Positions 16,158 to 31,353 of a stretch of DNA of 34,064 nucleotides are shown here, piece after piece; position 1 is the first letter of the stretch; every line of letters starts with the position of its first letter. This DNA is from Candidatus Bathyarchaeota archaeon (GTDB lineage: Archaea > Thermoproteota > Bathyarchaeia > Bathyarchaeales > Bathyarchaeaceae): NCBI GenBank assembly GCA_030615265.1, contig JAUWZP010000012.1, forward strand, positions 1 to 34,064, written 5' to 3'. The notes under the pieces are model-generated. The model had not been told where the DNA came from. It did no database searches and saw only the letters and a list, made by a program, of their open reading frames with translations. Both the position numbers and the translations under genes were made by a program.

Positions 16158-16254
16158 CAATTTAAGACGAACTTTTCAACCAGTGTCTTTTGTGCTTTTG
16201 AAGAGCAAAGTCTTAAGCATCGGTTTCTCTTTGTTATTCTCTTGAGGAGGAAAA

Positions 16255-16962
16255 ATGGAAAACAAGGCTTGGGAACAGCTTGTTCAAAGTTTGATTAGAC
16301 AGCGCATTCTTAAGTCGCCTCACGTGATTCGTGCGTTACGCAAGGTTTCGAGGGAGCAGTTTCTGCCTGAACGAGTGAAATCCTACGCGAACGTGGATTC
16401 TCCGTTTCCAATAGGGTTTGGGCAGACGATTTCGGCGCCACACTGCTAGGCTTAGCTACGCCTAGCTGGGCGAAACATGGTTTCAATAATGAATGAAGCC
16501 CTAGAGTTGAAAGCAGGGCACAAAGTGTTGGAGATAGGTGCAGGTTCAGGCTGGCACGCTTCCACCATAGCAGAGACTGTAGCTCCATCGGACATGGCGA
16601 AAGAAAAGTGGGGACATGTGTACACTGTGGAAATCGTTAAAGGACTAGCTGAATTCGCTCGCAATAATGTGGAGCGTGCAGGCTACGGCAACCGTGTCAC
16701 AATTGTTCATGGAGACGGCTCCCAAGGATATGCTGAAAAAGCTCCTTACGACCGTGTTTTGGTGACCGCCGCAGCGCCAGACATCCCCAAACCACTGATT
16801 GACCAGTTAAAAAACGGCGGAGTTCTTGTTATCCCCGTTGGAGGACTCTATCTTTATCAAACCTTGTTTCGAGTTCGCAAGGTTGATGACAAAATTACTG
16901 AGGAGAACTTGGGCGGCGTAGCCTTTGTTCCGTTAACAGGCAAGTATGGACATAGAATCTGA
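16255..16962 (+). CDS. pcm: Protein-L-isoaspartate O-methyltransferase, interrupted by a 33-nt BHB-type intron
   Basis: ATG 16255 follows a strong GAGGAGG. The first part encodes the PCMT N-terminus up to GFGQTISAPH, then TGC TAG GCT TAG interrupts the frame. Coding resumes in the same frame at ATG 16477 (MVSIMNEALELK), continuing with the SAM motif VLEIGAGSGWHAS, then VHGDGSQGY and YDRVLVTAAAPDIP. Removing 33 nt restores the family motif GQTISAPHMVSIM without loss and gives 224 residues, the normal size. The enzyme methylates abnormal isoaspartyl residues so they can be repaired. The insertion folds as a splicing-endonuclease substrate, so the mRNA is probably spliced. Alternatives are a pseudogene or two separately translated fragments. 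Confidence 0.88.
16442..16474 (+). other. Probable archaeal BHB intron in the pcm mRNA (33 nt)
   Basis: Central helix: CGCC (16436-16439) pairs with GGCG (16469-16472). Bulge 1 is A-C^A (16440-16442) and bulge 2 is A-A^A (16473-16475). Cutting each bulge between its second and third base excises 16442-16474. The inner stem pairs 16443-16451 with 16460-16468 (one U-U mismatch, seven perfect pairs GCTAGGC/GCCTAGC) around an 8-nt loop. The outer helix is weak, with only G16435-C16476 clearly paired. The excision is in frame and regenerates the His codon at the junction. Confidence 0.8.
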
Positions 16963-31243: not shown

Positions 31244-31353
31244 TGGCGGGCCCGAGGGGAGTTGAACCCCTGACCATCGGATTAAGAGTTTCAGCCTTGG
31301 CTTAGTCAGAGTTAAGCCCAATCCGCCGCTCTACCTTGCTGAGCTACGGGCCC
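31244..31353 (-). tRNA. tRNA-Lys(CTT) with a 33-nt intron and encoded CCA
   Basis: On the minus strand the acceptor GGGCCCG pairs with CGGGCCC, followed by discriminator G and an encoded CCA. The D arm is GCTC/GAGC. The T arm is AGGGG-TTCAACT-CCCCT. After removal of the intron the anticodon arm reads GCGGA-CTCTTAA-TCCGA, with anticodon CTT, T33 and A37. The body and discriminator G are typical of lysine tRNA. A canonical-position reading would give anticodon GGG with C37, which fits proline poorly. Confidence 0.92.
31290..31322 (-). other. BHB intron of tRNA-Lys, between positions 30 and 31
   Basis: Reading the minus strand, outer helix AGAG pairs with CTCT and central helix CGGC with GCTG (one G-U). 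Bulges are GG^A and AA^A. The inner stem has nine positions with one mismatch, and the loop is 8 nt (ACTCTGAC). Cutting both bulges between bases two and three removes exactly 33 nt and yields the mature lysine anticodon arm. Confidence 0.85.

Follow-up and report, generated by a model that had tools for sequence, protein, structure and literature searches.

The pcm gene of Candidatus Bathyarchaeota archaeon is very probably interrupted by a tRNA-type intron of the bulge-helix-bulge (BHB) form that would be spliced from its mRNA. The gene, which encodes the protein-repair enzyme protein-L-isoaspartate O-methyltransferase, occupies positions 16255-16962 on the forward strand of the window, by which we mean the whole stretch of 34,064 nucleotides that was analysed, and is split by 33 nt (16442-16474). 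The sequence evidence consists of the position of the insert, its BHB geometry, covariation, open spliced reading frames, selection on the exons and the presence of the enzyme genes.

Layout of the pcm gene and its insert

The start codon ATG 16255 is preceded by a Shine-Dalgarno-like GAGGAGG (16244-16250). Exon 1 (16255-16441; PF01135 positions 4-60) encodes residues 1-62 and closes with base one of the codon for His63; exon 2 (16475-16962; PF01135 positions 61-208) contains the remaining two bases of this codon, Met64 onward and the stop codon. With the insert bridged, the match extends over positions 4-208 of the 210 in the profile. A search of the genome with PF01135 gave no second match of similar strength, the 7 others being weak and partial. 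If exon 1 is read on unspliced, it continues as CAC TGC TAG GCT TAG, with in-frame stops at 16447-16449 and 16453-16455, and the downstream frame is taken up again at ATG 16477. The insert with its two TAG codons and the unchanged frame behind it thus have the sequence and coordinates given in a first-pass annotation of this DNA. We placed the junction by aligning the gene with intronless pcm genes and with the 111 others that bear the intron; the intron matches the R1 model with 80.9 bits (E = 1.9e-18). Joining 16441 to 16475 would yield GGCGCCAC followed by ACATGG, and the junction peptide would contain GQTISAPHMVSIMNEALELK. Solved archaeal enzymes align with the spliced Pcm along its length, and the junction falls within GQTxSAPHMV (1jg1).

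The BHB elements described in the same annotation were recovered base for base. The central helix is formed by CGCC (16436-16439), within exon 1, and GGCG (16469-16472), within the intron, and is flanked by the bulges ACA (16440-16442) and AAA (16473-16475). Cuts at 16441/16442 and 16474/16475 would excise 16442-16474 and rebuild the invariant His codon of GQTISAPHM as C/AC, the slash marking the junction. The inner stem (16443-16451 with 16460-16468) is paired at 8 of 9 positions, the exception being a T-T mismatch (16444/16467), and it closes on the loop TTAGCTAC (16452-16459), the length of which differs among relatives. The outer helix, which had been noted as weak, indeed amounts to one G-C pair (16435/16476), and this is a feature of the whole intron family rather than a defect of this copy.

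To quantify how readily such a structure arises by chance, we shuffled the insert 200,000 times and obtained the full central helix together with at least 8 of 9 inner pairs in 5 per 100,000 shuffles. We also scanned 260 kb of the same genome, a limited set of its stretches, for BHBs that, once removed, would leave two open frames joined. Under relaxed settings the pcm BHB ranked 1 of 60 and no other convincing gene was found in the 260 kb, while under strict settings even pcm escaped detection in the 260 kb, owing to its T-T mismatch. The relaxed scan also missed cbf5 of this genome, since the first central pair of cbf5 is T-G, and further introns may therefore exist in the genome. The fold free energy was not significant (z = -0.87), so that the case for the pcm BHB is one of geometry and conservation, not stability.

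Conservation and covariation among relatives

The first-pass annotation had proposed that related archaea be searched for the same insertion and for compensatory changes. This search yielded 112 distinct intron-bearing pcm genes, that is, 111 in addition to the one in the window, all interrupted at the same base as judged from protein alignment alone. They belong to Bathyarchaeia, other Thermoproteota classes and the Asgard phylum (98 genes from Thermoproteota and 14 from Asgard-phylum genomes). Most of the 150 related genomes searched that have pcm show the interruption at this point, recognizable by in-frame stops or a change of frame. Within Thermoproteota the introns were found in the window's own order (families within f1-f9), elsewhere in the same class (f10, f15 and f17) and in other classes (f34 and f43). 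Intron lengths range from 21 nt in f10 to 48 nt in f17, the shortest being those of L147, L148 and L169 in the former family.

The 14 Asgard-phylum genes were drawn from genomes that share a phylum with the Asgard archaeon Borrarchaeum. In the tree, 12 of them are placed apart from Bathyarchaeia, near Borrarchaeum and other genes of that phylum, and the contigs of several of these are long, the largest reaching 1.1 Mb. The other two, L226 and L227, group with Bathyarchaeia and were set aside as probable binning errors. No interrupted pcm was found in the sampled phylum of the DHVE2-group genome. Two further Asgard-phylum pcm genes, L240 and L243, carry 6 extra in-frame bases (ATGGTA or ATGGTT) at the same point without a BHB.

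The spliced frames were open in all 112 genes, and a cut between the second and third bulge bases restored His-Met in each. Unspliced, the frame ran into a stop within the insert (88 genes) or no more than 25 nt after it (24 genes). Insert lengths fell into all three classes modulo 3 (27, 49 and 36 genes), so that neither read-through nor a single frameshift would suffice. In 41 of the genes the insert has an intact His codon neither before nor after it, so that only the C/AC joining restores the residue. Both exons are under purifying selection, with dN/dS values mostly in the range 0.04-0.2, and the decay of the downstream part that the first-pass annotation named as a possible refutation was not seen.

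The pairing of the helices was examined in the 98 Thermoproteota genes. For the central helix, 99.7% of cells were paired, as compared to 6-51% when the partners were slid, with no fitting involved; three positions were paired in 98 of 98 genes and the fourth in 97. The sequence is CGCC with GGCG in 101 of all 112 genes and CACC with GGTG in 9, which are scattered across several separate lineages; the G-U intermediate CGCC with GGTG occurs once. In the inner helix, 90% of cells at the first eight positions were paired versus 17-56% when slid, the first six being paired in 93-100% of the 98 genes and showing many compensatory pair types. Compensatory change was seen in almost every inner pair, and among the 38 genes whose introns measure 31 nt each of the nine pairs had changed on both sides in some genes. 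For these 38 genes, 78 cells were changed on both sides versus 27.5 in shuffles, which ignore sequence relatedness and of which none out of 500 reached as high a number; the covariation score of these equal-length genes was 0.414 versus 0.04-0.18 when slid.

The bulges are constrained at the bases of the His codon. The second base of the 5' bulge is C in 98 of 98 genes and its third base varies; the last base of the 3' bulge is A and is followed by C in 98 of 98, and the middle base varies. The His codon is CAC in all 98 intron-bearing Thermoproteota genes, whereas intronless genes have 27 CAC and 20 CAT (p = 5.6e-12). A fixed CAC would be expected if the last base of the His codon pairs with the Ala codon, and the synonymous sites confirm this predicted constraint. 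The corresponding outer G-C pair was present in 98 of 98 genes and the next pairs were mostly broken. The motif thus has the layout that defines a BHB, a 4-bp central helix with a 3-nt bulge at each exon-intron border, with helices kept by compensatory changes, but it lacks the full outer helix of canonical BHBs, which non-canonical ones do without, and is classed as non-canonical since this helix is almost everywhere a single G-C pair. The 112 distinct genes, the shared base, the BHB geometry and the abundant compensation support the original reading of the insert as an archaeal BHB intron.

Other explanations fit these data poorly. In mitochondrial byps and in T4 gene 60 a short hairpin insert likewise interrupts a gene and ribosomes hop over it, a process that depends on matched take-off and landing codons and does not alter the RNA. 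The pcm inserts are short and form hairpins in an otherwise intact gene, and under such bypassing the insert would remain in the RNA. However, the required codons match in only 2 of the 112 genes, hopping would cost the 41 genes mentioned above their conserved His, and the covarying pairs link exon bases to intron bases in the exact BHB geometry. We therefore regard bypassing as very improbable, and hold the same of a two-chain enzyme in which exon 1 is translated up to the stop and exon 2 begun separately at ATG 16477, as the first-pass annotation had considered. The conserved Met after the insert means that an ATG is always available there, but this Met is just as conserved in intronless pcm genes (47 of 47), and 102 of the 112 genes have no Shine-Dalgarno-like site before it, unlike the true start with its GAGGAGG. 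Separate initiation would also leave the covariation across the junction and the fixed His codon unexplained.

The in-frame stops of this copy might in themselves suggest a pseudogene, an assembly error or stop read-through. It is extremely unlikely that any of these accounts for 112 distinct genes with one insertion point, purifying selection on both exons and inserts in which TAG, TGA and TAA are all found; read-through could not bridge the 85 inserts of a length that is not divisible by three.

Splicing machinery and proposed mechanism

The genome encodes two paralogues of the tRNA splicing endonuclease EndA and one RtcB, and two EndA paralogues are present also in most relatives. One of them (L141) aligns with the catalytic subunits of Crenarchaeota and has kept the aligned Tyr, His and Lys, while the other (L142) is without the catalytic Tyr and His. 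Cleavage of cbf5 pre-mRNAs, with their unconventional BHBs, is attributed to heteromeric EndA (PMC2738675), and the predicted two-paralogue set fits a heteromeric enzyme that takes non-canonical BHBs.

We infer that the pcm mRNA is cleaved, ligated and translated in its spliced form, as follows. The gene would be transcribed as a pre-mRNA carrying the 33-nt archaeal (tRNA-type) intron, in which the exon sequence GGCGCCAC would fold against the intron end GGGCGAA into the bulge-helix-bulge. The endonuclease, probably an (alpha-beta)2 heterotetramer, would cut each 3-nt bulge after its second base, and RtcB would ligate the exons, thereby restoring the His codon C/AC and the frame. The excised intron would leave as a short RNA, probably circular.

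Evolution and relation to other BHB introns

On quick pcm trees, in which intronless genes sit among intron-bearing ones, intron presence required at least 13-16 changes, 4-7 of which were forced by well-supported branches. Horizontal spread of a single intron-bearing pcm lineage was rejected (AU test, p = 7e-8, for a group named after the first tree had been seen). The scattered distribution at an identical site suggests either one old intron that was lost many times or repeated insertion at this site. That base, phase and border motif are identical in both phyla would favour a common origin. A tentative scenario, to which we give somewhat less than even credence, is that the intron predates the split between Thermoproteota and Asgard, was held at one base of the active-site motif and was repeatedly kept or lost, possibly being selected by tying pcm expression to splicing capacity.

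The pre-mRNA of cbf5 (aCBF5/dyskerin) in Crenarchaeota was reportedly found to contain an intron by Watanabe in 2002 and Yoshinari in 2006. We used cbf5 of the same genome (L186, G000:C32:4400-5700), which carries a BHB intron, as a positive control. This gene and its counterparts in 19 sampled Bathyarchaeia (L187-L205) have a BHB intron of 19-40 nt in the Asp codon of GTLDP (G/AT), at the profile position where many other Thermoproteota cbf5 genes are split. The cbf5 intron is proven in Crenarchaeota, most such introns are non-canonical BHBs, and a 2009 study recorded them only in Desulfurococcales and Sulfolobales (Yokobori, PMC2738675). Like the pcm intron, the cbf5 intron is a short BHB in coding sequence, cut between the second and third bulge bases, with a weak or unconventional flanking helix, scattered losses and a hetero-oligomeric EndA. 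The pcm intron differs in its host gene (PF01135) and site, which places it outside the cbf5 family, and it was found in Bathyarchaeia, other Thermoproteota classes and Asgard, as against the two orders given for cbf5 in the 2009 study. Two other cbf5 genes (G013:C38:12176-14746 and G032:C11:292017-294588) contain in-frame, intein-like inserts of about 1.4-1.6 kb; their open reading frames comprise 884 and 797 codons.

Known BHBs in mRNA, as far as we found, are the cbf5 introns and the 5'UTR of HVO_1309 in Haloferax volcanii (PMC7714728, PMC2738675, PMC12397907), and a 2020 paper named cbf5 as the one additional BHB intron described from archaea (PMC7714728). The HVO_1309 BHB is likewise processed by EndA in an mRNA but is located outside the coding sequence, so that the protein, unlike Pcm, does not depend on it. 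The open-access literature on BHB mRNA introns contained no mention of pcm, and earlier notice elsewhere is possible; among the literature searched, pcm is, as judged from the genomic data, the second protein gene known to require BHB splicing within its coding sequence. Since pcm is interrupted in dozens of genera from two phyla, splicing-dependent protein genes would have a wider distribution among archaea than has been assumed. Automated gene prediction probably cuts intron-bearing genes of this kind short or breaks them up, and the pcm introns constitute a large natural collection of putative EndA substrates. The introns of pcm and cbf5 both split, in the same phase, the codon of a conserved motif residue (His of APHM and Asp of GTLDP), a parallel that is relevant to the gain of such introns and to the reasons for their persistence.

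Archaeal tRNA introns with a BHB share the recognition motif and presumably the enzymes, but the substrate in pcm is an mRNA without a tRNA body. The window itself contains a tRNA-Lys(CTT) gene (31247-31353, reverse strand) with a 33-nt BHB-like intron (31290-31322) just upstream of the anticodon, which was missed by the tRNA scan of the window and found using Rfam and ARAGORN with introns allowed. The end of this insert, GGCTGAA/A, resembles that of the pcm intron, GGGCGAA/A.
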